Part shown: positions 2,053 to 25,493 of the stretch, one piece after another
Layout of the letters: each line of letters starts with the position of its first letter
Position numbering within the stretch: the stretch's first letter is position 1
Source of the DNA: Bacillota bacterium
Lineage (GTDB): Bacteria > Bacillota > Desulfotomaculia > Desulfotomaculales > JAJYZD01
Direction of reading: 5' to 3'
Length of the DNA stretch: 32,824 nt
Assembly: GCA_021800315.1 (NCBI GenBank)
Contig: JAJYZD010000003.1
Span: 1-32,824, forward strand
Program-made: the position numbers and the translations under genes
The notes under the pieces: model-generated
Seen by the model: the letters and a program-made list of their open reading frames with translations, nothing else
What the model was told of the DNA's origin: nothing
Database searches by the model: none

Positions 2053-2179
2053 GTTTGGTGTATACTATCGTTTACACTACGAGCCGTTTCTTTCGACCGG
2101 AGACCGCCAAATCCCTTCCCCCCCGGGTTGGTATATCTTTTGCATAAGTACTCGCAAACAGATTTTGGGGGCGTGTTTC

Positions 2180-3316: not shown

Positions 3317-3327
3317 GGGGAGTAGGT

Positions 3328-3858
3328 TTGGCGGAGAAACAGCCAGGATTGGTGCAGGTATACACAGGCAACGGCAAGGGCAAGACCACCGCGGCCCTGG
3401 GGCTTGCCTGGCGGGCGGCGGGCCACGGCAAGCGGGTATTCATGCTGCAGTTCATGAAAGGCAGTCCGGATTACGGCGAAGTCAGGGCGGCCTCCCTGCT
3501 ACCCGGCTTTACCCTGGTTCAGAGCGGCCTGCCCACCTTCGTGGACAAGGTCCATCCCTCGCCGGAGGATCTGAGGCTGGCCGCCGAAGGACTGGACCGG
3601 GCGCGGCGGGAAATAAGCGAAGGGGACTGGGACCTGGTCATCCTGGACGAGGTTAACGTGGCCCTGGACTACGGCCTCATCCGGGCGGAGGATGTGGAGG
3701 CGATGATCCGCCAAAAACCGGCCGGGCTGGAACTGGTCCTGACCGGCCGTTACGCCCCGCGATCAATCGTCGCCCTGGCCGACCTGGTCAGCGAGGTCAC
3801 GCTGGTCAAACACCCTTACTACCGCGGGATCCAGGCCCGCCAAGGTATTGAGTACTAG
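3328..3858 (+). CDS. cobO: cob(I)alamin adenosyltransferase, CobO/BtuR type
   Basis: VQVYTGNGKGKTTAALGLAWRAAGHGKRVFMLQFMKG, DLVILDEVNVALDYGLI, ELVLTGRYAP; TTG start. Confidence 0.92.
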   Translation: MAEKQPGLVQVYTGNGKGKTTAALGLAWRAAGHGKRVFMLQFMKGSPDYGEVRAASLLPGFTLVQSGLPTFVDKVHPSPEDLRLAAEGLDRARREISEGDWDLVILDEVNVALDYGLIRAEDVEAMIRQKPAGLELVLTGRYAPRSIVALADLVSEVTLVKHPYYRGIQARQGIEY

Positions 3859-3879
3859 CCGCGAAGGAGGTTTTTATTC

Positions 3880-5541
3880 GTGGGTCAAGACGACTTGAAA
3901 CCGGATCCGGAAAGGGAAGCCTGGCGGGCCAAACGATCCCAATTGCCCGACCGTCCGGTTGACTTCACATCCCTTTCCGGCCTGGAGCTTGCCGAACTCT
4001 ATACGCCGGAGGACCTTTCCGGCTTCGATTACGGACGCGACCTGGGCTATCCCGGCCGGTATCCCTACACACGCGGCGTGCAGACGAACATGTACCGGGG
4101 ACGCCTTTGGACCATGCGCCAGTTCGCCGGCTTCGCCTGCGCGGCGGAGAGCAACGCCCGTTACAAGTTCCTGTTGGAACGGGGCACCTCCGGCCTCTCC
4201 GTGGCTTTCGACATGCCCACCATCATGGGATACGATTCCGACCACCCGCGGGCCTGCGGCGAGGTCGGCCGGGTCGGAGTGGCCATCGACTCCCTGGCCG
4301 ACATGGAGACCCTGTTCGCCGGCATTCCCCTGGACCGGGTCAGCACCTCCATGACCATCAACGCCCCGGCCCCGGTCATCTGGGCCATGTACATCGCCAC
4401 GGCGGAAAGGCAGGGCGTGAGCCCCGGGAAGCTGACCGGCACCATCCAAAACGACATTCTGAAGGAATACATGGCGCAGAAGTCCTGGATCTTCCCGCCC
4501 GAACCCTCCCTGCGCCTCATTACCGACATTTTCGCCTTCGCCGCCGACTTTGTTCCCCACTGGAACACGGTCAGCATCAGCGGTTACCACATCCGGGAAG
4601 CCGGCTCCACCGCCGCGCAGGAACTGGCCTTCACCCTGGCCGACGGCTTCGCCTACGTGGAAGCGGGCATCAAGGCCGGTCTTTCCGTGGACCGCTTCGC
4701 CCCCCGCCTCTCCTTCTTCTTCAACTCGCACATTGATTTCTTCGAGGAGATCGCCAAGATGCGGGCGGCCAGGCGCATCTGGGCCCGGCACATGAAGGAG
4801 AAATACGGGGCCAGGGATCCCCACTCGCTGCTCCTGCGCTTCCACACCCAGACCGCCGGCTGCAGCCTGACCGCCCAGCAGCCGGAGAACAACGTGGTTC
4901 GCACCGCCTACCAGGCGCTGGCCGCGGTTTTAGCCGGCACCCAGTCCCTGCACACCAACTCCCTGGACGAGGTCCTCGCCCTGCCGACGGAAAAGGCAGT
5001 CCAGATAGCGCTGCGCACCCAGCAGATCATCGCCCATGAAACCGGCGTGACCAACGTCATCGACCCCCTGGCCGGCTCCTACTTCGTTGAATCTTTGACC
5101 AACCGGATGGAGGAGGAAGCCGAAAGGTACTTCGCCGAAATCGAACGCCGTGGCGGCGTCATCGCCGCCATCGACCAGAATTTCTTCCAGCAGGAGATCG
5201 CCGACGCCGCCTACCGCTTCCAGCAGGCCGTGGACAACGGCCGGCGCATCGTGGTTGGAGTGAACGACTTTGTCGATCCGGCGGAAAACATCGATATCGA
5301 GCTTTTGCGCATCGACCCGGCCGTAGAGCGCGACCAGGTGGAGCGACTCCACCAACTGCGGACGGGCCGGGACAACCTGACGGTCGGCGAAAAACTGGAC
5401 GACCTGCGGCAGGCCGCCGAAGGCACCGCCAACCTGATGCCCTTCATTCTGGCGGCCGCACGGGTCTACGCCACTGAGGGCGAGATCATCCAGGTCTTCC
5501 GCGAGGTATTCGGAGAATACCGGGAGAAGCCGGTATTTTGA
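3880..5541 (+). CDS. B12-dependent acyl-CoA mutase, large (catalytic) subunit; annotators would likely say methylmalonyl-CoA mutase, but substrate residues look isobutyryl-CoA-mutase-like
   Basis: [125 protein letters not shown]. The family call is secure; the substrate is inferred. Confidence 0.95.
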
Positions 5542-11284: not shown

Positions 11285-13354
11285 TCAGATCAGTCCGGCC
11301 ACTACCTGCATCAGGTCTAAAACGGGGATGTCGCTGGGATGACCCGGCTGCGTCCGGGCTAAATGCAGGCGTTCGAAGCAGGCCGGGCAGTCGATCAGTA
11401 GTTCATCGACACCCAGTTTGTCGGCGTCCAACATTACATTATTCGCCATATCAATGGACATTGGGGGATGGGCCCGCCTGATGCCGCCCCCGGCACCACA
11501 ACATTTCGCAAACCGGCCATGGTCAGGCATTTCCACCAACTCCAGACCGTGAACGTACTCCAGTACCTGCCGGGGCGGACGGATGACTTCGCGCGATCCC
11601 CGGGCCAGGTTGCACGGATCGTGGTAGGTCACCTTGCGCCTGTATTCCCGGGTGAGGACCAGCCTGCCTTGCGCCAGAGCCGGGGCCACCACCTCCGTAG
11701 TATGCACCACCTCGAACGCCAACTCCCGGCCAAGAAATACCGGCCAGTTGGGAACAATCATGTTCAGGCAACACGGGCAGGAGGTGACGAGACGCCGGAC
11801 TCCCCGCTTTTCCAAAGCCTCCACATTATGACGTACCAACTCTTCCACCAATTGATGCTCGCCGACGATCCACAGCGGGAAACCGCAGCACCACTCATCG
11901 TCCAAAATGGTAAACTCCACGCCTGCCGCCTGCAGGACCTTCACCGCTCCCGCCACCATCGGCCGGGCGGCGTAGGCTCCGGAGCAGCCCGCAAAAAAGG
12001 CCGTCCGGGCCTGCCTAAGCACCTTCACTTCCGGCGGAATAAAGGCCAGCCGGTCAGCATGCGGTTGGCCGTAGGGATTATTGGTCTGAAAGATGATGGT
12101 CCGTAAATCACGCTGCGGGCCCACGGGCCCACTTTCCAACTCAACCATCTTGTGCCGCAGCGCCGGCCACAGCCGCAGGCAATTGACGCCCACCGGACAG
12201 TGTTCCCCGCATACACCGCAAACGGTACATCGGTAAAGGGCGTCGGTGAGCCGGTCTATCTTACCTTTATCCAGGGACCGCTCCCCCCGAAGAAGGGCCC
12301 CCGCGCCGCGCTGAGACGCCAACAGGCCCTTGAAGAGGCTGATCTTCTCCGGTGGTGATATTTCCGGGGTGCCGCCGGCTTCCTGCACCGGGCAAAATTC
12401 GAGGCATTGTCCGCAGCGGGTGCAGGCATCAAGGGAAGCCAGGTTTAAAGTAGACAGCCCTTCCCATAGTTTTATCTGTCCCTTTCCGGTCCTGGAGGCC
12501 GGGAGCAGTTCCACCGCCGAGGCCGTTTTCCCGGCGCGGCTGTGGTCCAGCGACCCGGCATCCGTGGTCAGCGGCGCCACATATATATGGAACAACTTGG
12601 AGAACGGAATGTACGCGATCGTGCAAAGAGCCAGAAAAACGTGGAAAAACCACAAGTACTGATGCCATTCGCCGGCCGAGGCCGGGCCGGCCGTCAGGAA
12701 CAGCCGCCCGGCCCATGCTCCCGGCGTAGGCCAAAAAAGCTCGGGGGTAGCCGGACCCTGGGCAGCCATACGGCTGCCCTCGACCAGAAAACCCGTTCCC
12801 CCCACAAGGAAGAAAGTCAGCAGAATCCCCAGGTCTTCCGCCGCATTCACCCGCCGCCGGGCGGGCGTTAGGAAAAGGCGCCGCACCAGCATGCCCAGAA
12901 TCCCGAGGACAAAGGCCGCACCGGCCCAGTTCACGACCAGCTTATAGACATAAAAGACTTCCCCATGCAAAAAGGCCAGCCCGAAATCATGGCTGACCGC
13001 CAAAAGCAGGCTGGCGGTCAAAAGCAAAAGGAAGCCCCAAATCACCAGTATAAGGGCTATCCCCCGGAAAACGCTGTAGCGAAAAACGCGACGGGCTAAA
13101 AGGCAGTCCGCGGAGAAAAAACGGGAAAGGGACCAGACGACAAACCGCCAGCCTCTTCTACCACCGAAATCACCGGCGGCCGGCCTTCCGGACTGAAACC
13201 ATAACGAAACCCGTAGCCATACGCCCCAGGCTAATACCGCGAGCGCGAGGGCGGCAGCCAGGTAAAAAGCAACAATCACCGGACCTGAGACGCCGTAAAA
13301 GACCGGCCGGGCATAAGATGGTGCTAGGGGTTGCAAGTTTTCACCTTTTTTCAA
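11285..13354 (-). CDS. membrane-bound Fe-S oxidoreductase: NarI-like membrane domain, two [4Fe-4S] motifs and two CCG domains (HdrD/DUF224-like)
   Basis: Hydrophobic N-terminal half; CTRCGQCLEFCP, CTVCGVCGEHCP; CCGFPLWIVGEHQLVEELVRHN..SCPCC; CCGAGGGIRR...CPACFERL. Confidence 0.88.
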   Translation of the reverse strand: MKKGENLQPLAPSYARPVFYGVSGPVIVAFYLAAALALAVLAWGVWLRVSLWFQSGRPAAGDFGGRRGWRFVVWSLSRFFSADCLLARRVFRYSVFRGIALILVIWGFLLLLTASLLLAVSHDFGLAFLHGEVFYVYKLVVNWAGAAFVLGILGMLVRRLFLTPARRRVNAAEDLGILLTFFLVGGTGFLVEGSRMAAQGPATPELFWPTPGAWAGRLFLTAGPASAGEWHQYLWFFHVFLALCTIAYIPFSKLFHIYVAPLTTDAGSLDHSRAGKTASAVELLPASRTGKGQIKLWEGLSTLNLASLDACTRCGQCLEFCPVQEAGGTPEISPPEKISLFKGLLASQRGAGALLRGERSLDKGKIDRLTDALYRCTVCGVCGEHCPVGVNCLRLWPALRHKMVELESGPVGPQRDLRTIIFQTNNPYGQPHADRLAFIPPEVKVLRQARTAFFAGCSGAYAARPMVAGAVKVLQAAGVEFTILDDEWCCGFPLWIVGEHQLVEELVRHNVEALEKRGVRRLVTSCPCCLNMIVPNWPVFLGRELAFEVVHTTEVVAPALAQGRLVLTREYRRKVTYHDPCNLARGSREVIRPPRQVLEYVHGLELVEMPDHGRFAKCCGAGGGIRRAHPPMSIDMANNVMLDADKLGVDELLIDCPACFERLHLARTQPGHPSDIPVLDLMQVVAGLI

Positions 13355-13432
13355 TCGCTGATTTTTTCCAACACGTACCTGAAAATACCCCTGCCCCTGT
13401 CACTTAACCCACGCCCCTGCCAGGTGCCGACT

Positions 13433-14215
13433 TTAAAGCGCCATACTCCCCGCTCGTCGCGGACCCTGCCCCGGCGGCGGGTCTTCCCGCGCAAACGGCC
13501 GCCTGGTTATCTTCCCGGTGTAGGGGCAAGCCAAAATACAAAGACCGCAAATGGCGCGTCCCGTCTTTTCCCGGTTCGCGGTCAAACGACCGGTACAGGC
13601 CTGCACGTCTATCTGCCCGGCCGGACCGGCGCTGGACCATTCCCGGTCCGGTATGGCCTGCACCGGGCAGCCGTCGACGCAGCGACGACACTTGCCGCAC
13701 CGTCCGGACCACAGCGGGGATTGGCAGACCGCGAGGGGGGCGTTGGTCAAAACGGTGGCCAAACTCAGGAGTGGTCCGTAGCGCTCGTTGATCAGCAGCC
13801 CGCTCTTCCCGACCCAGCCCAACCCGGCGCAGGTCGCCGCGGTTTTATGGGGGAAAAGAGGATAGATCCGGGCTATGAAGCGGGAATCCCGCCGTAGGGA
13901 ATCCGGGGGTATAGCCAGGGTCCTCCATCCCCGGCTCTTCAAATAGCGGACCAGCCAGCCCTGGACCCGTTCCAGCCGCTGGTCGACGTCCGCCATTTGA
14001 TTACAGTAAGCCGTTACGCCGCCGGAAGAAACCACGTTCCCGCCGCCGGAAGGATGGGCAACCGCCAGGGACACGGCTTTATCCAAATGCCGCAATTCCC
14101 CGGCCAGACCGCGGCTGACATCGCCATACCCTACCAGGGTGACCCCCAGGGACACCAACCGGTCGCTCAAATCCCGCTGCCAGTCCACGGGCATGACTTC
14201 GCCAGCCACTGTCAT
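13433..14215 (-). CDS. QueG-like (epoxyqueuosine-reductase-related) 4Fe-4S protein
   Basis: GLGWVGKSGLLINERYGPLLSLATVLTNAPL; CGKCRRCVDGCPVQAI; CGLCILACPY. Confidence 0.83.
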   Translation of the reverse strand: MTVAGEVMPVDWQRDLSDRLVSLGVTLVGYGDVSRGLAGELRHLDKAVSLAVAHPSGGGNVVSSGGVTAYCNQMADVDQRLERVQGWLVRYLKSRGWRTLAIPPDSLRRDSRFIARIYPLFPHKTAATCAGLGWVGKSGLLINERYGPLLSLATVLTNAPLAVCQSPLWSGRCGKCRRCVDGCPVQAIPDREWSSAGPAGQIDVQACTGRLTANREKTGRAICGLCILACPYTGKITRRPFAREDPPPGQGPRRAGSMAL

Positions 14216-14262
14216 CCGTCCCCTTTTACGGTTTTTCCGGCGGCTTTCCTCCGCCGGATCGC

Positions 14263-15315
14263 CTAAAGCGCTTTCCGGGCCCAGTTCGACGCCCCGTATT
14301 GTCTAACCGTATCCACCATAGTCCGGAGATTGGCCAGGGGAGCCGTCGGCCAGATATCACAGGATGGCCAGAGGGCGTCCACCCCCCCTGCCAGGCTGGC
14401 CAGCACCGCGGCCTCAACATCCTCCGGCCGGCCGTTCACCAGGATGTTATAGGCATCGATATTGCCGAACAGCAATGGTTCACGGCCGATTTTCTCCCTG
14501 GTCTTTTTCAGGTCGTTCTTAGGCTCCACGCTCAGCGCGTCCGCTCCGCATTCATTCATCAGGTCGATCACCAGGTTGGTATCCCCGCAAATGTGCAGGA
14601 TCCGGGGTGATGCCATCGCCTTAAAGATCCGGACCAGGTGCGGTTTAATCACCTGCCGGAAGCTGCGCGGACTGAGGATGTCCGCGGTCGCCCCCATTTC
14701 CCGGATGGTGATGTAGTCGGCGCCGGCTGCCCGGTAGGCCGCCGCCATGGTGATGATGACCCCGGAGAGGGTTTCCAGGAGGGCGTTGACCTTGGCCGGG
14801 CTCCGGGCGGTCAGCTTGAAGAGGTCGTTCAAGTCCATCAACTGTCCGGCCAGGGTGTACGGTCCAAGCAACCAACTGCCGACCGGGACCGTTGCCCCGA
14901 CATCCTTCTTCAGCAATCCGATGGCTTCCATTACCAGCGGAAAGCGGCCCCGCTCCGGGAGGTCGGCGGGAACCGTCACCTTTTCCATGTCTTCCGGCGA
15001 GTGAACTATTTTCGCCTTGATCGTCGGGTAGAGCACCTGGCCGACATCTTCGTAGGCATTCATGACGCAGCCCAGCGCCTCGGCTTCAACGCACATATCG
15101 AAAGGGACCACCGCGCACTCGTAGCCAAACAGGCGGTACGAACTGGCGGCCGCGTTGGCCATTTGCACCGGATCACCGTGGATGGCCGCGAACTTGTACC
15201 CATACTCGGCCAGACCGGCTGTAGTAACGTTTCCCATCCCGCTGTAACAGGCGATCCGATCGGTTTTCCGCCCGGCGAACAAGCCCAGCACCCTGTCCCT
15301 GCTGGAGACGCTCAT
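14263..15315 (-). CDS. uroporphyrinogen decarboxylase-like (MtaA/CmuA-type) methyltransferase
   Basis: SVSSRDRVLGLFAGRKTDRIACYSGMGN; GSWLLGPYTLAGQL; ILHICGDTN; GNIDAYNIL; SCDIWPTAPLANLRTMVDTVR. HxC...C zinc-ligand pattern. Confidence 0.9.
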   Translation of the reverse strand: MSVSSRDRVLGLFAGRKTDRIACYSGMGNVTTAGLAEYGYKFAAIHGDPVQMANAAASSYRLFGYECAVVPFDMCVEAEALGCVMNAYEDVGQVLYPTIKAKIVHSPEDMEKVTVPADLPERGRFPLVMEAIGLLKKDVGATVPVGSWLLGPYTLAGQLMDLNDLFKLTARSPAKVNALLETLSGVIITMAAAYRAAGADYITIREMGATADILSPRSFRQVIKPHLVRIFKAMASPRILHICGDTNLVIDLMNECGADALSVEPKNDLKKTREKIGREPLLFGNIDAYNILVNGRPEDVEAAVLASLAGGVDALWPSCDIWPTAPLANLRTMVDTVRQYGASNWARKAL

Positions 15316-15338
15316 GAAAACATCCTCCTTGTAGTCAA

Positions 15339-16298
15339 CTAATTTGTCGCTGCCGCCGGCGGCTCTTCCAACCGGGCCGCAAAATCGGGGAAGAATCTAC
15401 GGACGGGGTGGCCGGGGCCGGCCGGCAGCACTCCCGTTTCCCCGCCGGCCAGGGTCGTCAGCAGCATACTCGCCGTAGCCACCGCGGGCAGTATTTTCGG
15501 CAGGTTTATAATGGGACCGGTAAAAAGGAGATCGGTCCACAGGAAAGCGGCAACGGCCTGCCCGGCGGCGTTCATGGCGTTGAAACCCTCGGCGCCCCAC
15601 ATTTCGCGAGCCTCTTTCCACATGTAGGTGCCGTTCGAGGAAGCGACGCCCGCCGGCCAACCGAACTCCTCCTTCATCAACCGGCAGGCGAGGCAGGAAA
15701 AAGCCGTGGAAGGAAGGTTCATCGTAGCCGCATCCACCAGGATACTGGCAAAATCATCCTCCCCGATTATCTCCAGCATCTTGCGCAGTCCGCTCACTCT
15801 GCCCGCGGCTGTCTGATCCTCCTGGTTGAAGGCCTGCACCACGACGTGCCTGACGCCCAGTTCCTTCAGACGGGCTACCTGGCCCGCTATATCCTTGTCC
15901 CACGGCGTGATGCTGTTGTACAGCAGCCGGTCATGCACACCCAGCCCGGCTGCGTAGGCCGCCGCCTCCAGACGGGTCTTCTCCACCCATACGTCGATGC
16001 CGAAAGGCTGTTCCGAGACGCCGAGGAAAAAATCAATATAGGTTTTCATCTCGTCCAGCGAATTGGCCACCAATGCCACCAGGGCCCCAACGCCAGTTTG
16101 GGCGGACAACTCTTCCTGCCGCAGGATGTAATCCCGGGCCTTGACCCGGTCAAACTTCCTTTCCTTCCTGCTTTCCAGAATTCTGTCCCCGTTGTGGAAC
16201 ATCGACGAAACAACCAGCGGCGGATTTTCCCCGGGCTGCCCGCCGACCGCCCACGGACCGATGCGGCAAACCCTTTGCTCCCGGTTCAACTTAAACAC
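15339..16298 (-). CDS. MtrH/MtgA-family (tetrahydrofolate/tetrahydromethanopterin) methyltransferase
   Basis: (V/M)FKLNREQRVCRIGPWAVGGQPGENPPLVVSSMFHNGDRIL...; NSITPWDKDIAGQVARLKELGVRHVVVQAFNQ; LPSTAFSCLACRLMKEEFGWPAGVASSNG. GTG at 16298 overlaps the RACo stop; the longer 16514 ORF start is out-of-frame shadow. Confidence 0.87.
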   Translation of the reverse strand: MFKLNREQRVCRIGPWAVGGQPGENPPLVVSSMFHNGDRILESRKERKFDRVKARDYILRQEELSAQTGVGALVALVANSLDEMKTYIDFFLGVSEQPFGIDVWVEKTRLEAAAYAAGLGVHDRLLYNSITPWDKDIAGQVARLKELGVRHVVVQAFNQEDQTAAGRVSGLRKMLEIIGEDDFASILVDAATMNLPSTAFSCLACRLMKEEFGWPAGVASSNGTYMWKEAREMWGAEGFNAMNAAGQAVAAFLWTDLLFTGPIINLPKILPAVATASMLLTTLAGGETGVLPAGPGHPVRRFFPDFAARLEEPPAAATN

Positions 16299-18276
16299 GT
16301 ACCGAGACCCCCTTTTCTTGCCACTTCGGTATCCTGTCCAAAACAGCCTGGATGTGGGGAAACCCGTCCCCGGCATGCGGAAAGGCCATCGCCGCGGCAA
16401 ACCTTTCCTGGAAGTCCGGCTCGACCGCCGTCTCGACAAACTCGACCGTTCCCGCAATCCGGACGGCCTCGCGGCGCTTCTCCACGTCGAACAGGGCCAG
16501 CCTGGCACCGTCACCGGCCGCGTTGCCCACGGGCATGACGTCCTCCAGGTCGCAGTCGGGAATCATCCCGATAACCATGGCGCTCTCCTTGTCGATATAG
16601 CTGCCGAAGGCGCCGGCCAGCGTAACACTGTTCACGGCGTCCACGCCCAGCTTTTCCATCAGGTAGCGCGCTCCCACGTACAAGGCGGCCTTGGCCAGTT
16701 GCACCGCCCGGACATCGCCCTGGGTGAAGGTGATATCGCGGCCGATGGATGTCTCCTGCGCCCACGCCAGCACGAATTCCGATTTCCCGTCCTCCCCCTT
16801 GCGTAGCCGGGGGGAAGCGATTTTCAGGTTGAAGCGGCCGCTTTTTTCCACGATCCCGCTCTTGAACAACTCAGCCATGACATCAATGATTCCGGAGCCG
16901 CAGAGTCCTTTGGCCTGCGGGTTGTTTACCCCGGGGTACCAGCCGTCCAGTCCGATCACTTTGTAGGAAACAGCCAGGGTTTCGGGATTGATACGCACCT
17001 TTTCGATGGCTCCCGGCGAGGCCCGCATACCGAACTTGATCTGGGCCCCCTCCAGGGCCGGGCCGGTCGCACAGGACGTACACAGAAGCCGCCGGGCGTT
17101 GCCGATGTCGATTTCACCGTTGGTGCCGATGTCGATGATCATGCGGATTTTTTCCGGTTCCTTGTATGGTTCTTCCGCTATAAGTACGCCTACGTTATCC
17201 GGCCCGACGAAGCCCGCTTCGACCGGCAGGGAATGCACGTTGGCGCCCCGGCACACCTTTATTCCCAGGTCCCGGGCCTTGATGTCCAGCGCGTTTTTGG
17301 TAGCCGCGGTAAACGGGGAGCGGCCCAGAAACCGTGGTTCGATGCCCAGGGCGATGTGCTGCATGGCCGTGTTGAATACCAGGGTTACCTCCAGGATATC
17401 ATCCGCCGTAAGGCCGGCCTTCCCCGCCAGGCGCCCGGCCAGGGTGTTCAGACCCTCGATGATGGCTCCGCGCATTTTCGCCAGGCCGTCGTCGTTCATC
17501 ATACCGTAGGTTATGCGGGAAAGCACGTCTTCGCCGTAGCGCACCTGCGGGTTCATCATGGAGTCGACGGCGAGCACCTGCCCGTTACGCAGGTCGCACA
17601 GGTAGGCGGCCACGGTGGTGGTGCCGATGTCCACGGCCAACCCCACGCAGTGCTCCACCAGACCGGGTTCCACCAGGATTATTTCCCGGCTGTTCCATAC
17701 GGTTACCGTAACCTTCCAGTCCCCTTCGCGGACGACGTCCGGCAGACAGGTCAATACCGAATAGTCCACGGCCAGGTCTTCCGGTACACCGTACTTGGCG
17801 GCCAGGGTCCGCCTGATCCGCTCGGCGTCACCGCGGTGATCATCCAGCGTGGCCGGCGTCATTTCAATGTAATACTTCCGGACGGCCGGGTTCAGGTTGA
17901 ACACGCGTTCCTTGCCGGTCTCCAGCACCACCTGCCTGGCTCCCCTGCTTTCCTCCGGCACGAAAACCAGGACGTCTCCCCGTACCGCGGCGCAGCAGGC
18001 CAGACGGTATCCTCCGGCCAGCTCTTCCTCCGTCAAAAATTCCCCTTCATCCCCGGCCAGGGGTGAAAGGTTCTCCATGCGCGAGTCGATACCGAATTTC
18101 TCGAAAAAACCCTCTTCAATCTTCACCTTGCACTTGCCGCATACCCGGGAGCCGCCGCAAACACTCTCGATATCCACGCCCAACTGCCGGGCCGCTTCCA
18201 AAACGGTAACCCCTTCCGGTACCTGGCCACGCCGGCCGGATGGCTGAAAAATCAAGGTCACTGAGGTCGATCCCAT
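16291..18276 (-). CDS. RACo-type corrinoid reductive activator (N-terminal [2Fe-2S] domain + DUF4445/ASKHA domain)
   Basis: CGGSRVCGKCKVKIEEG...LACC; GLAVDIGTTTVAAYLCDL; NPQVRYGEDVLSRITY; IIDIGTNGEIDIGNARRLLCTSCATGPALEGAQIKFGMRA; GLCGSGIIDVMAEL; VTLAGAFGSYID. Confidence 0.93.
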   Translation of the reverse strand: MGSTSVTLIFQPSGRRGQVPEGVTVLEAARQLGVDIESVCGGSRVCGKCKVKIEEGFFEKFGIDSRMENLSPLAGDEGEFLTEEELAGGYRLACCAAVRGDVLVFVPEESRGARQVVLETGKERVFNLNPAVRKYYIEMTPATLDDHRGDAERIRRTLAAKYGVPEDLAVDYSVLTCLPDVVREGDWKVTVTVWNSREIILVEPGLVEHCVGLAVDIGTTTVAAYLCDLRNGQVLAVDSMMNPQVRYGEDVLSRITYGMMNDDGLAKMRGAIIEGLNTLAGRLAGKAGLTADDILEVTLVFNTAMQHIALGIEPRFLGRSPFTAATKNALDIKARDLGIKVCRGANVHSLPVEAGFVGPDNVGVLIAEEPYKEPEKIRMIIDIGTNGEIDIGNARRLLCTSCATGPALEGAQIKFGMRASPGAIEKVRINPETLAVSYKVIGLDGWYPGVNNPQAKGLCGSGIIDVMAELFKSGIVEKSGRFNLKIASPRLRKGEDGKSEFVLAWAQETSIGRDITFTQGDVRAVQLAKAALYVGARYLMEKLGVDAVNSVTLAGAFGSYIDKESAMVIGMIPDCDLEDVMPVGNAAGDGARLALFDVEKRREAVRIAGTVEFVETAVEPDFQERFAAAMAFPHAGDGFPHIQAVLDRIPKWQEKGVSVRV

Positions 18277-18430
18277 ATTCCTTCTCCCCTTTGCGCTTGT
18301 GTGGACCCGGACAGACCGGCGGACGGCCTGGTGCCTTGTACATGTTGTTAACCCACAATGCTCAGCTGCTAAAGGATCCGCCGTGAACAGCCGACCACGC
18401 CGCCCAGTCGGAGGCAGCCGCCGGACTGCC

Positions 18431-19090
18431 TTAAAGCCCGCGCAGCGAACTGATCATGTTGATGGCGTCGCGCAAGGCGTTGGTGGCATCCTTGGCATAA
18501 CCGTCGGCGCCCCAGCGCTCGGCGATTTCCTCGTTGACGGGAGCGCCGCCGATCATGATTTTGGCTTTCGGATTCTTGGCCTTGATCACTTTAATGATGT
18601 CCTTCATCCCCACCATCGTTGTCGTCATCATAGCGGACAGGGCCACGATCTCGGAGTCTGTTTTCAGTTGTTCCTCGACGAACTTCTCGAGCGGTACGTC
18701 GCGGCCCAGGTCGTGCACGACGAAGCCGGCCGCATCAAACATCAGCTTTACAATATTTTTGCCGATATCATGCACGTCCCCCTGTACCACCCCCATGACA
18801 ACCTGGCCCTTCGGCTTCGAATTTTCCTTCGAAATCAACGGACGCAGAATATCCAGTCCGGCGTACAGTGCATCAGCGCACATCAACAGTTCCGGCACGA
18901 AATATTCCTGAATTTCGTAGAGACGGCCTACTTCCTGCATGCCGACCACCAGGCCGTCGAAAATGGCCTCGTGCGGTTCCATCCCTTCCCTGACGGATTC
19001 ATTCGCCGCATCGCGGGCCGCATCCTCATCGTAGTTAACTACGGCGTCGCCGAGTTTCTTCAACAGTTCCTGTTTTCTTTCCGGTGTCAT
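18431..19090 (-). CDS. methyltransferase-associated corrinoid protein (MtaC/MtvC-like)
   Basis: VVMGVVQGDVHDIGKNIVKLMFDAAGFVVHDLGRDVP; IVALSAMMTTTMVGMKDII; IMIGGAPVNEEIAERWGADGYAKDA. Confidence 0.95.
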   Translation of the reverse strand: MTPERKQELLKKLGDAVVNYDEDAARDAANESVREGMEPHEAIFDGLVVGMQEVGRLYEIQEYFVPELLMCADALYAGLDILRPLISKENSKPKGQVVMGVVQGDVHDIGKNIVKLMFDAAGFVVHDLGRDVPLEKFVEEQLKTDSEIVALSAMMTTTMVGMKDIIKVIKAKNPKAKIMIGGAPVNEEIAERWGADGYAKDATNALRDAINMISSLRGL

Positions 19091-19153
19091 AAGCTCGTAC
19101 TCCCTTCCAATATTGTTGCTTCGTTCCCCGGAGACCTGCGGGCAGGCTGCGCC

Positions 19154-20410
19154 TTAGGACGACTGCGCCACGACCGCCCCGCCGCCCGCCTGTTCTTCAC
19201 AAAAGTCCGCCAGTTGCCGCTTCGGCTCCCCGGCAATCAGGACGCCGGCGATGCTCAGCAGGAACATCAGGCTGCCCAGGCGGAAGGCCACGGGGATGGA
19301 ATAGTATTTGATCAGGATTCCCGCCACCAGGGGCGCAAAGAGAGCACCGACCCTCCCCACGGTCAAGGAGAAAGATGTCGCCGTACCACGCATCTCGGTC
19401 GGGAAGGACTCTCCGCAATACAGGATCCCGTTCACCCAGGGCCCCTGGTAGATACCGAAAACCAGGAAACCGAGAACTATCAGCAGCGGCAATGAATCCA
19501 CCCGCCGGGAAGTGAAGAAGTACATGGCCACGGCACCCGCCACGGCGGTCAGGATAGTGGCGTTTCTCCGGCCCAGGCGGTCGCCCAGCCAGCCCGAGCC
19601 GACCACGAAGACTATGGCAAGCAGGTAGATGAGGGCCATGGCGCCCGTCATCCGCCCGGGGGACAGGTGGCCTTTCTGCATCAGGTACAACGGCAGGTAA
19701 ACGGAGTAGGACCAGTAAGTGTATTCGGTCCCGATCCAGGCTATGGTGGTGCCGATTAAGGCACGGCGGGAACTTTTGCCCGCGAAAAGCTGCCTGATGG
19801 TAGTTTTTCTTTTTTCGCCGGCAAATCGCTGTTGGACCGTCTGAAAGCGGGGTGTTTCGACCAGGAACTGCCTGACGAACACGATAAGCAAACCGGGGAG
19901 CAGGCACAGAAGGAAGGCATAACGCCAGCCTTCGGCCACGTTGAGGAACAGTCCGAAAAACCCCACGGCTGCCAACGAACCCAGGCTGTAGAAGCTGTAA
20001 AACATCCCGAAACCGCGGCCGCGGCTCTTCTCCGGCCAGGTTTCCGCCAGATAGGTCGTGGCCACCGGCAGTTCCATCCCGCCGCCTAGTCCGGTGAGCG
20101 CCCGGGCGATTCCCAGCATGGCCGGGGAAGACGCCAGTCCGGTCAGCGCCGTGGTCACGGTGTAACCGAGGATGGATATGCCCAGTCCTTTCTTTCTGCC
20201 GATGTAATCAGACATCAAGCCGCCGGCGAAGGTTCCGCCGGCATAGCCCACCAGGAAAATCGTGGCGATGAGCCCGATGGTCGTGGTGGAGGCATGCAGG
20301 CTTTCCTCTATCTTCGGCACGCTCACGGCATAGAGGTTGATCACCAGGGCGTCGAAGAACCAGCCGGCCCCCGCGATCAGCAGCACAAAAACACCCAGCC
20401 CGGCGATCAC
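19154..20410 (-). CDS. MFS transporter (aromatic-acid/organic-anion symporter-like)
   Basis: GWFFDALVINLYAVSVPKI; FLVGYAGGTFAGGLMSDYIGRKKGL; GIARALTGLGGGMELPVATTYLAETWPEKSRGRG; GDRLGRRNATI; GESFPTEMRGTATSFS. Confidence 0.9.
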   Translation of the reverse strand: MIAGLGVFVLLIAGAGWFFDALVINLYAVSVPKIEESLHASTTTIGLIATIFLVGYAGGTFAGGLMSDYIGRKKGLGISILGYTVTTALTGLASSPAMLGIARALTGLGGGMELPVATTYLAETWPEKSRGRGFGMFYSFYSLGSLAAVGFFGLFLNVAEGWRYAFLLCLLPGLLIVFVRQFLVETPRFQTVQQRFAGEKRKTTIRQLFAGKSSRRALIGTTIAWIGTEYTYWSYSVYLPLYLMQKGHLSPGRMTGAMALIYLLAIVFVVGSGWLGDRLGRRNATILTAVAGAVAMYFFTSRRVDSLPLLIVLGFLVFGIYQGPWVNGILYCGESFPTEMRGTATSFSLTVGRVGALFAPLVAGILIKYYSIPVAFRLGSLMFLLSIAGVLIAGEPKRQLADFCEEQAGGGAVVAQSS

Positions 20411-20482
20411 CGGGCCGTTGCCTGTCCGGCCGCCCGTTTCCGCCTTCCTCAGATTGTCTACGATCTTTCACCTCGCCTGATG

Positions 20483-21499
20483 TCAATGCTCATCCGTTAC
20501 GGACAGAAAAGCTTCGATGTTTCGCCAAGGGGTGGCCGGGGCCAGGTCGCAACCCGGCATCAATACGAAACCCCGGTGCTCACGCAACTCCGCCAGCGCC
20601 CTCTGTACGCCGGCTCGGATTTCGGACGGCCCCGCCCCGTAGAGCAGCAACGGATCGATATTCCCGCCCATGCCCAGACCCGCCAAACCGTCGCGGGCCA
20701 GCGCCAGGCTCACCAGGCTGTCGAAACTGAACGCCGAAAGCCCCCGGATACGGGCGACCGCCTGGAGCCTGTCCGCGGTACGCCCGCAGATGTGCAAAAG
20801 ACCGGCCCGTTCTCCACCGCCGGTAAGCGAACTGAAGAGTTCACTCAACGGTTCCGCCACGAATTCGGCGAACATCCTGGGCGAAATCAGGTCGCCCGAA
20901 GCCAGTGGCTCGGCCAGGTAGACGATATCAACGCTGTCCAGCACCGGCCGGTAAAACTCCAGGACCGCCTCCTGCGCCATGGCGGTGAAGGAGCGGAGCA
21001 GGCCGGGATTACCCAGGCACAGCCGCAACAACGCCTGCGGTCCGAACACCTGGCCGGCCACGGTAAAAGGTCCCCAGGACACCATCGTGACGGGGAATTG
21101 ATCCCCCAGACGGTCCGCCACGCGCCGGGTGGCTTCCTGAACCGTCTCCACCGTACGGCTTTGCGCCAGCTCCTTCACCCGGCACCGGATGGACGGATCG
21201 ACCGGCAGGATCCGGGCCGGCACGGGCGGAGACGGGTCGGGCCAAACCAGTTCGGTACGGGCCAGCGCAGCCGGCAGGGCGTTGTTGAACCCGCCCCCGA
21301 CGAAGACTATGCCCCGGCCCAGCCGCCTTGCCGTGCTGACAATGGCGCCGGCCAGCCGAACGGGGTCAAGGGCCGCTTCCCGGAAGCCGATCCCGTTCTG
21401 GACCATGGTCCAGGCGCCCCCGCCCAGCAGGCTGACCGGCAATTGCGCCGGTGTTTGACCCCGCAGGGCCGCCAGGATATCCGCCTTGGAACCGCTCAC
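20483..21499 (-). CDS. uroporphyrinogen decarboxylase-like methyltransferase (paralog A)
   Basis: LLGGGAWTMVQNGIGFREAALDP; VSWGPFTVAGQVFG; LLHICGRTADRL; GGNIDPLLLYGAG; FVLMPGCDLAPATPWRNIEAFL. Confidence 0.88.
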   Translation of the reverse strand: MSGSKADILAALRGQTPAQLPVSLLGGGAWTMVQNGIGFREAALDPVRLAGAIVSTARRLGRGIVFVGGGFNNALPAALARTELVWPDPSPPVPARILPVDPSIRCRVKELAQSRTVETVQEATRRVADRLGDQFPVTMVSWGPFTVAGQVFGPQALLRLCLGNPGLLRSFTAMAQEAVLEFYRPVLDSVDIVYLAEPLASGDLISPRMFAEFVAEPLSELFSSLTGGGERAGLLHICGRTADRLQAVARIRGLSAFSFDSLVSLALARDGLAGLGMGGNIDPLLLYGAGPSEIRAGVQRALAELREHRGFVLMPGCDLAPATPWRNIEAFLSVTDEH

Positions 21500-21523
21500 G
21501 TCCGCCGCCTGCCGTCCATCCGT

Positions 21524-22555
21524 CTAACCCGGCGGCGTAGCGGCGGCCGTCCGCAAAAGCGCCTCTACATTCTCCCGCGGAACCGTGGGCCCGATATCGC
21601 AGCCGGGCATCAGGATGAAGCCGCCGCCCCCACCCAGCCTCTGGATGACGTCCCGCGCCTTTTGGGCTACTTGCTCCGGACCGGCCTGCAACATCACGGC
21701 CACCGGGTCGAGATTACCGGCCAGGCATCTTTTGCCGCGGAAGGCTTCCCGCGCCTTGACGAGGTCAACCTTGTGGTCGACGCTGATGATATCCGCCCCG
21801 GTCTCCAGCAGAAGATCCAGCCTGTCCGTGGTGTCGCCGCAGATGTGCAGCAGGGTTTTGACCTTCTTTTGGTGCCATCGGTCCGTCAGTTGGCGCAGGG
21901 AAGGCAGAACGAACTCGGCGAACTGTTTCCGGGAAAGCAGGTCGCCCGACGCCGTGGGATCGGCGATGGAAACCATTTCGATTAGGCCGCGCGAAATCAA
22001 CGGTTCGTAGAAACCGGTGATGAACTCCCGCGCAAAGTCGACCACGGCGTGCACCATTTCCCTGGCCTTGAACGTGCCCCGCATCAACGGTTCCACCCCG
22101 CAGATCTGGCCCGCCAGGGTGAATGGTCCCCAGGAGGTAGTGGTCACGACAAACCGGTCGCCGATGCGTCCGGACACAATTTCGGTGGTTTTCCAGACCG
22201 TTTGGATCGTTTCGTGCCCGGCCATTCTCCCTGTATCCAGGGCCCGCACCCCGGCCAGATCGTGAACCAGGGCTTCTTCCAGGTCCGGAGCACCGATCTT
22301 GCGGTACTTGATCGTCCCGCCCAACGCCGCCACATGGAGGTTGTTGTAGCCGGAGCCGCAGTAGACCATGGGATTGCCCACTTCCTCGGCCATCCGGACG
22401 AATACGCCGGCCATGCGCCGGGGATCCCGGGCCAGGGACTCAAACGTCTCCCCCGCCTGATAGAGGGTCCACATGCCCCCCCCGTAGTAGGCGGCCGGGA
22501 CCCGTTCGGTATCCTGCAAGTCGACGGCCGCCAGGATCGCTTCTTTTCCGGTCAT
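21524..22555 (-). CDS. uroporphyrinogen decarboxylase-like methyltransferase (paralog B)
   Basis: YYGGGMWTLYQAGETFESLARDP; TSWGPFTLAGQICG; LLHICGDTTDRL; AGNLDPVAVMLQAG; FILMPGCDIGPTVPRENVEALL. Confidence 0.9.
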   Translation of the reverse strand: MTGKEAILAAVDLQDTERVPAAYYGGGMWTLYQAGETFESLARDPRRMAGVFVRMAEEVGNPMVYCGSGYNNLHVAALGGTIKYRKIGAPDLEEALVHDLAGVRALDTGRMAGHETIQTVWKTTEIVSGRIGDRFVVTTTSWGPFTLAGQICGVEPLMRGTFKAREMVHAVVDFAREFITGFYEPLISRGLIEMVSIADPTASGDLLSRKQFAEFVLPSLRQLTDRWHQKKVKTLLHICGDTTDRLDLLLETGADIISVDHKVDLVKAREAFRGKRCLAGNLDPVAVMLQAGPEQVAQKARDVIQRLGGGGGFILMPGCDIGPTVPRENVEALLRTAAATPPG

Positions 22556-22599
22556 ACTATCCCCCTGTTCCTGTCAGCGCTGGCCGTGGGAACCCCTTT

Positions 22600-23049
22600 T
22601 CAGCCGATGCCCTTGTCGAAGCGGGGCGGCGGCAGGTACTCCCACGGTTCGCCTTTACGGTAGTGGTCGGCGATGTCCATCACCTTGGCCGCATATTCAA
22701 ACGCATAGGGGATGCCGGGACCGCCGGGCACGAAACCGGCGCCGATCATACCCACCGCTGCGGCCTCGAAAATCTCCTGGTCGGTGGCTCCGGCCTCAAT
22801 GGCGGGAACCACGTGAATTATGCAGCGCGGCGACAGGTACGAAACACCGATGGCCGTAAAGATCAGTTCCTTGACTTTCCGGCTCAGCGCTCCGTCGGCC
22901 CAGATGGAATTGTAGAAGTCGGCGAAAGTGCGGCCCGATTCCGGGTTCACCTGGTTGATAACTCCAAACATCCGGGGAATGAAACCCATTGTTTCCTTCA
23001 TGTACTTGTTTACTTCCTCGGCTGTCATCCGGCCTTTCTCTTCACTCAC
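22600..23049 (-). CDS. carboxymuconolactone decarboxylase (CMD/AhpD-like) family protein
   Basis: FADFYNSIWADGALSRKVKELIFTAIGVSYLSPRCIIHVVPAIEAGATDQEIFEAAAVG. Confidence 0.85.
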   Translation of the reverse strand: MSEEKGRMTAEEVNKYMKETMGFIPRMFGVINQVNPESGRTFADFYNSIWADGALSRKVKELIFTAIGVSYLSPRCIIHVVPAIEAGATDQEIFEAAAVGMIGAGFVPGGPGIPYAFEYAAKVMDIADHYRKGEPWEYLPPPRFDKGIG

Positions 23050-23131
23050 GACTATCCCTCCACCTTAAATTTTGTTCCCAACGGGTTCAGGCGCCCAAAC
23101 GGTGCCCGCGGGTCTTCCGGTACCCGGTGTC

Positions 23132-23662
23132 CTACACGAAGGACCGGTTAACGAGTTCACCCACCAGCCTGACCTCCCGGGAAAGGGTGGTACCGACCGG
23201 CGACGTCTTCCAGACCCTGCCGTGCAACTCCTCCATTCTGGACCGCGGCGCGTCGGTTTTAAGAAAAACCCTCGCCCGGATCTCGGTGAAACCGGGCAGT
23301 TCCGACTGGTCCGCCTCGGGCGCCAGGCCCAAAAAGCCCGGCAGATCAATGTTGCCTTCCAGTTCGATCTCCAGCTTCTGCACATTGATACCCATAACGG
23401 CGGCATTCATGGCGTAACCGATACACAGGCAGGAGCCGTAGGATGCCAGGACCATTTCCACCGGGTTGGGTGCCGTGTTGGTGCCGCCAAGGTCAGGCGG
23501 TTCGTCCATGGCCAGCGTAAACCCACGGATATTGCTCTCCACCGCGAAGCCGCCACGCCAGCACGACCGTGCCCGCCACAAGGTTCTCCCCAGATCGGGA
23601 TTTTCTTTTACGGCCTGGACGATCTGTCCAAGCTTTTCGGGATCAAGACCGTTGATGACCAT
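23132..23662 (-). CDS. OsmC family protein
   Basis: NTAPNPVEMVLASYGSCLCIGYAMNAAVMGINVQKLEIELEGNIDL. ATG at 23662 (MVINGLDPEKL) preferred over 23683. Confidence 0.85.
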   Translation of the reverse strand: MVINGLDPEKLGQIVQAVKENPDLGRTLWRARSCWRGGFAVESNIRGFTLAMDEPPDLGGTNTAPNPVEMVLASYGSCLCIGYAMNAAVMGINVQKLEIELEGNIDLPGFLGLAPEADQSELPGFTEIRARVFLKTDAPRSRMEELHGRVWKTSPVGTTLSREVRLVGELVNRSFV

Positions 23663-23955
23663 AGTTCGTACCCTCCCTTGCAAACTCCCCGGCCCCCCTG
23701 TCCGGAGGCCCGTTACCCTAGACTGCCCAAGACAACCGGCAGCGCTTGCCGGGCCCCGGTTGAACGGCTCCCGTATTCCCCTTCCCTGATCCCGGCGGGT
23801 TTTTCAAGACATCGCCTTTTGCTCTCCGGCCGCAGTCCTGACAGTGTGCCCCGATGGATCCTTGTGCAATTGTGTACTTTGATTATTCTAATACTAAATT
23901 ACGCTATAAAAAAATACCCCCTCGTTGAAAACTTCATTCCCCAACAACCGGAGTC

Positions 23956-23967
23956 AATGTATACATT
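23956..23967. promoter_or_regulatory. 12-bp perfect palindrome AATGTATACATT, candidate operator overlapping the -10 element
   Basis: Sequence equals its own reverse complement and overlaps the -10 box and predicted start region. The GTATAC core resembles many GntR-family operators (inference). Confidence 0.55.
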
Positions 23968-23993
23968 ATATGCCCTTTTTCGCTGCCTGTCAA
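23965..23993 (-). promoter_or_regulatory. perfect-consensus sigma-70/sigma-A promoter
   Basis: Minus strand reads TTGACA (23993-23988), 17-nt spacer ggcagcgaaaaagggca, TATAAT (23970-23965). Confidence 0.85.
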
Positions 23994-24467
23994 CACGATG
24001 ATCCTGAACAGCCGGAAACCGGGACTGCTTTGTCATAATCACAGGTCGGCCCGCATTTATTGCCGGGACGATTGACCGTTTTTCCGCTACCGCTTGAAAC
24101 AGTGAATGGTTGTATTTAACCGCAGTAATCTTGCAATTTGTCCCAGACCGGAGAGATTCCGGCCCAGGTTCAAATTCCTGCAGCTTAATTGGCTGGATGT
24201 CGCTAACCGTCGTCTGACCCTCAACCGGAAGCCACCTGTATTACCACACAAAGGAAACAGCCAGGGGATCGTCCGGCGCTTCGGCTATTGCCGGCCCGGC
24301 CCACGACCCGGCGGGGCCGCTGCATCCCGCGCCCGCAAGGACGGAGATCAGCGGCCCCTTATCCGGAAACTGCAGGCCCGACCGCGAACCGTTAACGCCA
24401 TCCGGTTGTTTGGCCGAACCAGCGCCTGGTGCCCGTCCAATTCGCCACACTTTCCCGGGCGAACTTG

Positions 24468-25493
24468 TCAGCGCGTCGTTGCCCCACTTCCTCCGAAGTT
24501 CCGCACCGTCTCCACCATGGTTTTCAGGTTGGCCGGACCGGTACCCGGAGGCACGCCGCAACCAGGCATCAGGATGAAGTTTGCCGGTCCGCCTGCCAAG
24601 ATACAGGCGTTGGTTTCGGATTCCACCGCCACCCGGTCCCCCTGCAGGAGGGTACGGACCGGATCCACATTGCCGGCCAGTACCACCGCCGGGCCCACAC
24701 TACTTCTGGCGTCTTTGAGGCTCACCTTCTGGTCGAGGCTCAAAGCGTCGGCGCCGGTATCCCGCATCTCGGGCCAGATCTTTTCCGTGGAACCGCAAAT
24801 ATGCAGAATGACCCGGCCGCCCAGGCTGTGCACGTGCTCCACCAGCGAGGTGATGAAGGGGAAGGCGAAAGACCTGCTGTGCCGGGCGGCCAGCATGTCG
24901 GCCGATACAAAGGGTTCCGGCAGGTAAAATATCCTTGCCCCACAGCGGTAGGCTTCTTCCGCCAGGCTCTTTAAGATCCCGGTTATTTCCCTGATAATAT
25001 CCTCCAGCCGGGAAGGATTCAGGAAAATTTGCCTGAGCATCCTTTCGGCTTCGAAAACCCGCATCGCGGTAGTAAAGGGGCCTTCGAAGAGCACGCCCAG
25101 AGCCTGCCCCGCCGGTTGGCGCAGGATTGACAGCGCCTCCATCATGGCGTTGACCGAGGCTGTATTCTCCCAGGAGACGTTGCCGAATCCCTTAAAGTCA
25201 TTCAGGTCGAAGACCGTATCACCGACCGGGCCGAACGGCGACATCTTCACCTTCACCCCCATTGCTTCGGGAACAGCCATGGCGTCGGCGTATACGACCG
25301 TCCAGTCCATGCCGGTCCGGGCTTGAAACTCACCCTGTATCCGGGCCATCAGGGATCCGTCGGACCGCATTGCCGAAAGCGTACAACCGGCCATGAAGGC
25401 GGCCTGGGCCGCCCCTGTAATGATTACCGGAATACCGGAGGGTTGATGAGCCCATAAATTGGCCAGATTACCGGTGAGCGTCGCTTCAACCAC
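24468..25493 (-). CDS. uroporphyrinogen decarboxylase-like methyltransferase (fourth copy)
   Basis: VVEATLTGNLANLWAHQPSGIPVIITGAAQAAFM; VLFEGPFTTAMRVF; VILHICGSTEKIWPEM; LAGNVDPVRTLLQG; FILMPGCGVPPGTGPANLKTMVETVRNFGG. GTG at 25493 with AAGGAG upstream; the longer 25802 start looks non-coding. Confidence 0.88.
   Translation of the reverse strand: MVEATLTGNLANLWAHQPSGIPVIITGAAQAAFMAGCTLSAMRSDGSLMARIQGEFQARTGMDWTVVYADAMAVPEAMGVKVKMSPFGPVGDTVFDLNDFKGFGNVSWENTASVNAMMEALSILRQPAGQALGVLFEGPFTTAMRVFEAERMLRQIFLNPSRLEDIIREITGILKSLAEEAYRCGARIFYLPEPFVSADMLAARHSRSFAFPFITSLVEHVHSLGGRVILHICGSTEKIWPEMRDTGADALSLDQKVSLKDARSSVGPAVVLAGNVDPVRTLLQGDRVAVESETNACILAGGPANFILMPGCGVPPGTGPANLKTMVETVRNFGGSGATTR

Follow-up and report, generated by a model that had tools for sequence, protein, structure and literature searches.

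A conserved corrinoid methyltransferase operon with Hdr-type redox partners in uncultivated anaerobes, a candidate system for the demethylation of S-methyl compounds

Analysis of a 32,824-nucleotide stretch of DNA from a Bacillota bacterium of the Desulfotomaculales (assembly GCA_021800315.1, contig JAJYZD010000003.1, positions 1 to 32,824; hereafter the window) revealed a cluster encoding four UroD-superfamily proteins (UroD_A to UroD_D), one corrinoid protein (CorP), an MtrH-like methyltransferase, a RACo activator, and the putative redox and thiol-handling proteins HdrED, QueG-like, CMD and OsmC (Table 1). An operon with common core genes recurs among uncultivated anaerobes, both bacterial and archaeal, that span at least six phyla. 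We put it slightly above an even chance that this operon demethylates S-methyl compounds anaerobically, passing the methyl group via the corrinoid protein to tetrahydrofolate, with an Hdr-type partner in the membrane. The proposal rests on gene content, invariant ligands, conserved gene order, co-occurrence and phylogeny, from which we infer the direction of methyl transfer and the roles of UroD_D, the QueG-like protein, HdrED, CMD and OsmC. Sulfur is most likely the heteroatom, because the UroDs carry a His-Cys-Cys zinc site, a sister group has Mar-like neighbours, DsrE-family genes lie by CMD, and the partners CMD, OsmC and HdrD are of thiol type.

The UroD_B sequence was used as a query against 85,000 species genomes. 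Nearly all matches belonged to uncultivated anaerobes of the Bacillota, Nitrospirota, Nitrospinota, Chloroflexota and Desulfobacterota, to Hydrothermarchaeum and to a euryarchaeote, with the carrier genomes being mostly metagenome-assembled. A gene-neighbourhood search, which a first-pass annotation of the window had proposed, showed that the same genes recur in the relatives as a conserved operon. In sixteen Nitrospirota loci the genes follow a single order, UroD_B-CMD-MtrH-UroD_D-CorP-QueG-RACo-DUF6951-HdrE-HdrD, the incomplete ones among them stopping early, mostly at a contig end. Outside this phylum, in Nitrospinota, Bacillota, Chloroflexota, Desulfobacterota and archaea, the forms are shorter or rearranged. 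The window contains a rearranged version, in which HdrE is fused to HdrD and UroD_C, an MFS transporter and OsmC (also UroD_A) are additional. Identities to the window genes in these neighbourhoods are highest for CMD (66-75%, across phyla) and OsmC (53-73%; 73% in locus L031, 53% in L040), with 54-70% for CorP, 51-58% for RACo, 46-56% for MtrH, 41-55% for UroD_D and 34-41% for the QueG-like protein; an MtrH-like gene is present in the loci of 22 of 28 relatives.

Among 198 Nitrospirota genomes, CMD occurs in 21, UroD_B in 21 and both in 20 (20 of the 22 carriers; hypergeometric p=3e-25), and the two singletons, with CMD or UroD_B alone, lie on or near contig ends. CMD is also found in 18 of 20 genomes with the window type of UroD_B versus 0 of 8 with the sister type (p=1.4e-5). 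Because of the conserved order and the co-occurrence of CMD with UroD_B, CMD, the QueG-like protein and HdrED are parts of the system and not bystanders; the QueG-like and HdrED genes sit within the conserved operon, in agreement with the earlier proposal that the system has its own redox partners. Within the window's own taxonomic order the distribution is sporadic, since only 5 of 60 relatives match UroD_B at all at E<=1e-30, in no case with the window type. The DUF6951 family (PF22263; L038:17177-17533 and relatives), located between RACo and HdrE in the Nitrospirota operon, has an invariant Cys-Cys-His-Cys set in 23 aligned sequences, and one copy in the window genome lies elsewhere (contig C216, L022:7630-7947). 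A family of 616 amino acids without a Pfam match adjoins UroD_B at L047:10984-13384 and also in L039, L043, L050 and L052; in L043 and L047, at least, it is followed by a LarC-like gene for nickel insertion.

All four window UroDs possess His-Cys-Cys zinc ligands, and alignment with MtaA agrees with the HICG motif and downstream Cys that had been noticed in each of them at first pass. His237, Cys239 and Cys319 of UroD_B are invariant in 52 of 52 sequences, and the equivalent residues of UroD_D are kept in 33 of 34. This pattern is characteristic of S- and Se-methyltransferases, with one or both Cys being replaced in the O-methyltransferases of the superfamily (PMC10418091); the window proteins thus combine the UroD TIM barrel with these ligands, the make-up expected of UroD-superfamily corrinoid S-methyltransferases. 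The UroD_B profile scores 140 bits to MtaA versus 45 to CdmB, the solved member of the O-demethylase/haloalkane branch that is 31% identical to MtoB (PMC13222342), and the predicted UroD_B model (pLDDT 92) has MtaA as its nearest solved structure (TM 0.86). UroD_D is 34% identical to M. mazei MtaA. The zinc site and the UroD_B scores run counter to the MtvB/MtvC/MtvA-like O-demethylase logic that was originally suggested. A Geoglobus protein (L078), considered as an Mto-type UroD with His-Cys-Cys, was discarded on its scores of 83 bits to MtaA versus 21 to CdmB.

In a tree of 102 UroD sequences, which contained no named Mlp, Mts, Mec or Mtv references, UroD_D forms its own clade (support 100/100) apart from the MtaA and mlp-like clades. 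UroD_B sits in a clade of 45 sequences, also supported at 100/100, that comprises two groups. The members of the window's group (support 88/60) come with a CorP, RACo, UroD_D and other core genes of their own. UroD_C falls inside the UroD_B group, and UroD_A is a long, unplaced branch. Residues of the partner proteins are also conserved: the DxHDxGKN residues of the corrinoid protein in 32-33 of 33 sequences, the 2Fe-2S Cys of RACo in 28 of 28, and eight invariant Cys of the QueG-like protein in 23 of 23. The HdrD-like gene consists of an HdrE/NarI-type membrane domain (NarI-like gamma) fused to an HdrD domain, which retains two cubane and two CCG motifs, most Cys being kept in 17 of 17 relatives. 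A NarI/HdrE-like membrane domain joined to an HdrD with two CCG motifs is the make-up expected of an HdrED-type thiol/disulfide:quinone oxidoreductase. The MtrH-like protein matches MtrH (141 bits) and MtgA (120 bits) in the PDB. The earlier view of a corrinoid methyltransferase system is supported, the MtrH-like protein being an acceptor enzyme of the folate/methanopterin type.

Several neighbouring genes point to sulfur metabolism. In the sister UroD_B group (heliobacteria, Pelotomaculum, Treponema and others), nitrogenase-like DK genes adjoin UroD_B in 12 of 18 loci (L049, L053, L054, L056-L058, L060, L063-L066 and L069), often together with cysK and sulfonate-type ABC (SsuABC-like) genes. 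DK genes of this kind in Heliobacterium mobile and chlorum have been reported to be methylthio-alkane reductase homologues (PMC9147875), methylthio-alkane reductase releases methanethiol (PMC12552129), and MarHDK-like genes near non-selenium mlp clusters were described by Kountz and Balskus (PMC10418091). CMD has DsrE-family genes next to it or in its vicinity in Chloroflexota, Desulfobacteraceae and Hydrothermarchaeum. DsrA is above the cut-off in 30 of 36 genomes tested, including the window genome (574 bits), and the 22 Nitrospirota carriers have ACS in 20, DsrA in 21 and SelB in all 22. According to PMC10762971, which refers to Tanimoto and Bak 1994, some sulfate reducers degrade methanethiol and dimethyl sulfide, and the enzymes of anaerobic bacterial dimethyl sulfide degradation are called unidentified in PMC10689795.

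A number of observations weigh against the assignment to S-methyl compounds. The DK genes of the sister group were assigned through the literature. ACS and DsrA are also usual in non-carrier genomes from the carriers' own anaerobic lineages (45 of the 49 ACS-positive non-carriers in the Nitrospirota likewise have DsrA), and the enrichment of DsrA, ACS and SelB is therefore confounded with lineage; it describes the hosts and proves no function. ACS was not found in the incomplete genome to which the window belongs. A UroD_D relative (L028:2221-3411) has all three zinc ligands replaced by Asn, Ser and Ser. Two Chloroflexota loci have UroD_B in genomes that are without CMD, with a different corrinoid protein, near MttB-like and amidohydrolase-like genes in L032 and near a urocanate-hydratase-like gene in L041. 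The best family of the window MFS transporter is aromatic acid/H+ symport (TIGR00895, 149 bits, far under the cut-off of 419).

According to the demethylation mechanism that we favour, UroD_B would use its His-Cys-Cys zinc to bind a thiol or thioether that carries a methyl group (methanethiol or dimethyl sulfide, for instance) and would then methylate the corrinoid protein in its Co(I) state, with UroD_C, and perhaps UroD_A, acting as variants for other substrates. MtrH would pass the methyl group on to tetrahydrofolate (tetrahydromethanopterin in archaea), and RACo would repair Co(II) back to Co(I). The constant second UroD, UroD_D, may perform a second demethylation (for instance of dimethyl sulfide and then methanethiol) or a small-thiol exchange. 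The QueG-like protein and HdrED may form the link to the quinone pool and either supply RACo or accept electrons from the released thiol; HdrED fits a quinone-linked thiol/disulfide enzyme because of its two cubane and two CCG motifs and its NarI-like membrane domain. CMD and OsmC may participate in thiol handling. It is possible, although we hold it with less confidence than doubt, that the operon is the missing bacterial route by which sulfate reducers and related uncultivated anaerobes demethylate methanethiol and dimethyl sulfide anaerobically. In this reading, S-methyl transfer through the corrinoid protein would be coupled to a quinone oxidoreductase of Hdr type in the membrane, and the CMD/AhpD-like protein would be an obligate partner whose function is new.

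Comparison with known systems showed that several UroDs beside a single corrinoid protein are not unusual, with precedents in the mec cassette (three; PMC9768040), the mlp clusters of type 1, which have two or three (PMC10418091), and the Mto operon (two, MtoB1 and MtoB2; PMC8630106). Type 1 mlp clusters share with the window several UroD/SCMT-like His-Cys-Cys proteins, one corrinoid protein and RACE, and have a proposed role with methyl-sulfur or methyl-selenium compounds; the window likewise unites at least two UroD-family Mlp-like proteins with a corrinoid protein and RACE, and MarHDK-like genes occur near some clusters. However, type 1 clusters are without a tetrahydrofolate methylase and the window has an MtrH-like gene, no CMD, OsmC, QueG-like or HdrED core has been described for mlp, and UroD_B and UroD_D occupy clades of their own in the tree, which is without named Mlp references. 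The mec cassette (PMC9768040) has in common three UroD-superfamily proteins, one corrinoid protein, MTII, a transporter and reactivation proteins, but the window operon genes include no pair of the MecA/MecD type, CMD, OsmC, QueG-like and HdrED are present, and the carriers are different. The Mto operon of Methermicoccus (PMC8630106) also combines two UroDs with a corrinoid protein, the MtrH-like MtoA, the 2Fe-2S RACo-like MtoD and an MFS protein, whereas the window UroDs have His-Cys-Cys sites and are nearer to MtaA than to CdmB/MtoB, and the window has extra conserved redox genes. In its working the operon would resemble the MtsA/MtsB methylthiol:coenzyme M (CoM) methyltransferase of Methanosarcina (PMC10762971, PMC10689795), which is of UroD type and acts on methylated thiols with a corrinoid protein; the window differs in using MtrH to a pterin instead of CoM and in belonging to a multi-gene operon with bacterial carriers. 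Thus, the operon appears to be a variant of the UroD-type corrinoid methyltransferase systems that would work like MtsA-type S-demethylation, and not a member of mlp, Mto or mec.

We found no description of the operon in the open-access library searched. Bacteria, including sulfate reducers, use up dimethyl sulfide and methanethiol in anoxic sediments, and the conserved ten-gene operon in DsrA-bearing Nitrospirota, together with the shorter or rearranged forms in the other phyla, is a concrete, testable candidate for this anaerobic consumption, with UroD_B plus CMD as marker genes for metagenomes. Should another S- or Se-methyl compound prove to be the substrate, the papers retrieved would still contain no description of a core methyltransferase operon that brings together an Hdr-type membrane module and an obligate partner of AhpD type.

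The foremost alternative, which we consider unlikely, is the demethylation of methyl-selenium or methyl-metalloid compounds (such as methylarsenic), akin to type 1 mlp clusters or to a selenocysteine-assisted organometallic set. The His-Cys-Cys site fits selenium too, ClMlp2 uses selenide (PMC10418091), SelB is present in all Nitrospirota carriers, and CMD and OsmC weakly match families with selenoprotein members, CMD also weakly matching arsenic-associated AhpD families. In addition, the window genome encodes SelB and has a second cluster on contig C304, in which a CorP/RACo/MtrH/UroD_D quartet 72-82% identical to that of the window accompanies a UroD (L018, G000:C304:12514-13566, minus strand) with an in-frame TGA exactly at the downstream zinc-ligand Cys (APG-TGA-D). 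The same TGA at this Cys occurs in genome G059 (L025:18713 onward); a SECIS-like hairpin follows both genes, HUIPC thioredoxin-like genes lie downstream, and C304 has CobW genes too. The TGA-containing protein is probably a selenocysteine UroD. Because C304 pairs the quartet with this UroD, the quartet is probably a shared core to which the other UroDs lend specificity. On the other hand, no selenium genes were seen in the operon, and the presence of several UroDs, MtrH and a membrane Hdr partner in one operon suggests catabolism more than trace salvage. Selenium as the sole explanation was rejected mainly because the Hydrothermarchaeum genome (G064) and G067 have UroD_B and CMD but no SelB above the cut-off, although G067 is small and probably incomplete; the SelB model does detect M. 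jannaschii SelB. A further cluster of the window genome, on contig C295 (L017), is probably a separate cluster of mlp type, because its two UroDs and corrinoid protein group with mlp-like clades.

An aromatic O-demethylase of the Mtv/Odm/Mto kind, in which the UroDs would be MtvB/MtoB-like and the MFS protein would import methoxybenzoates, is improbable. The parts of the Mto operon match (PMC8630106) and the MFS protein is nearest to the aromatic acid symport family; however, an MFS gene is absent from the Nitrospirota operons and from most relatives, the replacement of zinc Cys that marks MTI proteins of the MtvB/MtoB/CdmB branch is seen in none of the four UroDs, and CdmB, from the same branch as MtoB, is far more distant from UroD_B than MtaA is.

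We regard as very improbable the reverse direction, in which methyl-tetrahydropterin would methylate sulfide or a thiol for detoxification or coenzyme-M-like thiol use. UroD_D does pass the cut-off of the methylcobalamin:CoM methyltransferase subfamily, and methanogen MtaA methylates a thiol, yet RACo, several substrate-type UroDs and MtrH resemble known catabolic systems, and the sole CoM-like link found is Xsc (sulfoacetaldehyde acetyltransferase) in G059. A related candidate, a coenzyme M/sulfonate link with methyl-CoM as substrate, was not adopted: the Xsc beside the UroD_C relative in G059, the sole other close relative of UroD_C seen, is real (848 bits), but none is above the cut-off in the window genome. 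That locus (L025, G059:C132:65000-84999) encodes GlcD-like and HdrD-like proteins, the UroD_C relative, MFS, OsmC, a corrinoid protein, Xsc, EtfBA, AckA and the TGA-containing UroD, and may serve C2-sulfonate or CoM-like catabolism. Least probable of all is a mec-like dechlorination of chloromethane or dichloromethane, which the similar mec part list (PMC9768040) would allow, but for which the MecA/MecD two-component pair has no counterpart, CdmB is distant, and no link to organohalides was seen in the sediment and subsurface lineages among which the operon is widespread.

The features of the cluster are listed in Table 1. Pfam and NCBIfam searches confirmed every part listed at first pass, on one strand (four UroDs, CorP, MtrH, RACo, MFS, QueG-like and HdrD-like), and no MtaB- or MttB-type component was seen among the operon genes, as had been reported; OsmC and CMD, both between UroD_A and UroD_B, had been overlooked.

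Table 1. Genes of the methyltransferase cluster at 11285-25493 of the window.
Feature	Coordinates	Strand	Assignment and evidence
UroD_A	24468-25493	-	UroD/MtaA-superfamily methyltransferase; PF01208, 195 bits; GTG start after GGAG
OsmC-like	23132-23662	-	PF02566, 4e-18; one invariant Cys, C85 of the 183-aa open reading frame opening at 23683
CMD/AhpD-like	22600-23049	-	PF02627, 2e-9; Cys76/His79 invariant in alignment
UroD_B	21524-22555	-	URO-D; probable S-methyl substrate:corrinoid methyltransferase
UroD_C	20483-21499	-	URO-D; paralogue of UroD_B, 36%
MFS transporter	19154-20410	-	PF07690, 4e-61
Corrinoid protein (CorP)	18431-19090	-	DVHDIGKN; PF02310/PF02607
RACo	16291-18276	-	RACo-type ATP-dependent corrinoid reactivase, N-terminal 2Fe-2S domain; PF14574, 5e-94
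MtrH/MtgA-like	15339-16298	-	Methylcorrinoid:tetrahydropterin methyltransferase-like; PF02007, 1e-43; NF002142 above cut-off
UroD_D	14263-15315	-	MtaA-like core methyltransferase; PRK06252, 259 bits (cut-off 244)
QueG/reductive-dehalogenase-like	13433-14215	-	Two 4Fe-4S motifs; TIGR00276, 2e-14; Fer4_16; PDB 5d6s
HdrED	11285-13354	-	HdrED-type membrane Fe-S oxidoreductase; PF02665, PF13183, PF02754 x2

The URO-D Pfam matches of the four UroDs range from E 3e-42 to 2e-70. A whole-genome search located 12 UroD places in 3.48 Mb, and at least 4 of 12 fall inside 14.2 kb in 0.014% of random placements, so the clustering is not due to chance. UroD_A, upstream of the other genes, may be a separate unit, because about 0.8 kb without a recognisable gene lies between it and OsmC; no gene was found in this gap in three frames, nor with DUF6951, DsrE, CobW or thioredoxin queries. 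Foldseek returned only weak CMD/AhpD matches for CMD (best E 1.4e-3), pointing to no function. On the plus strand of the window, a row of genes at 1099-5541 encodes a BadF/BcrA-type ATPase, an acyl-CoA dehydrogenase, a CobA/CobO adenosyltransferase and a methylmalonyl-CoA mutase large subunit, forming a different, adenosylcobalamin-type neighbourhood.

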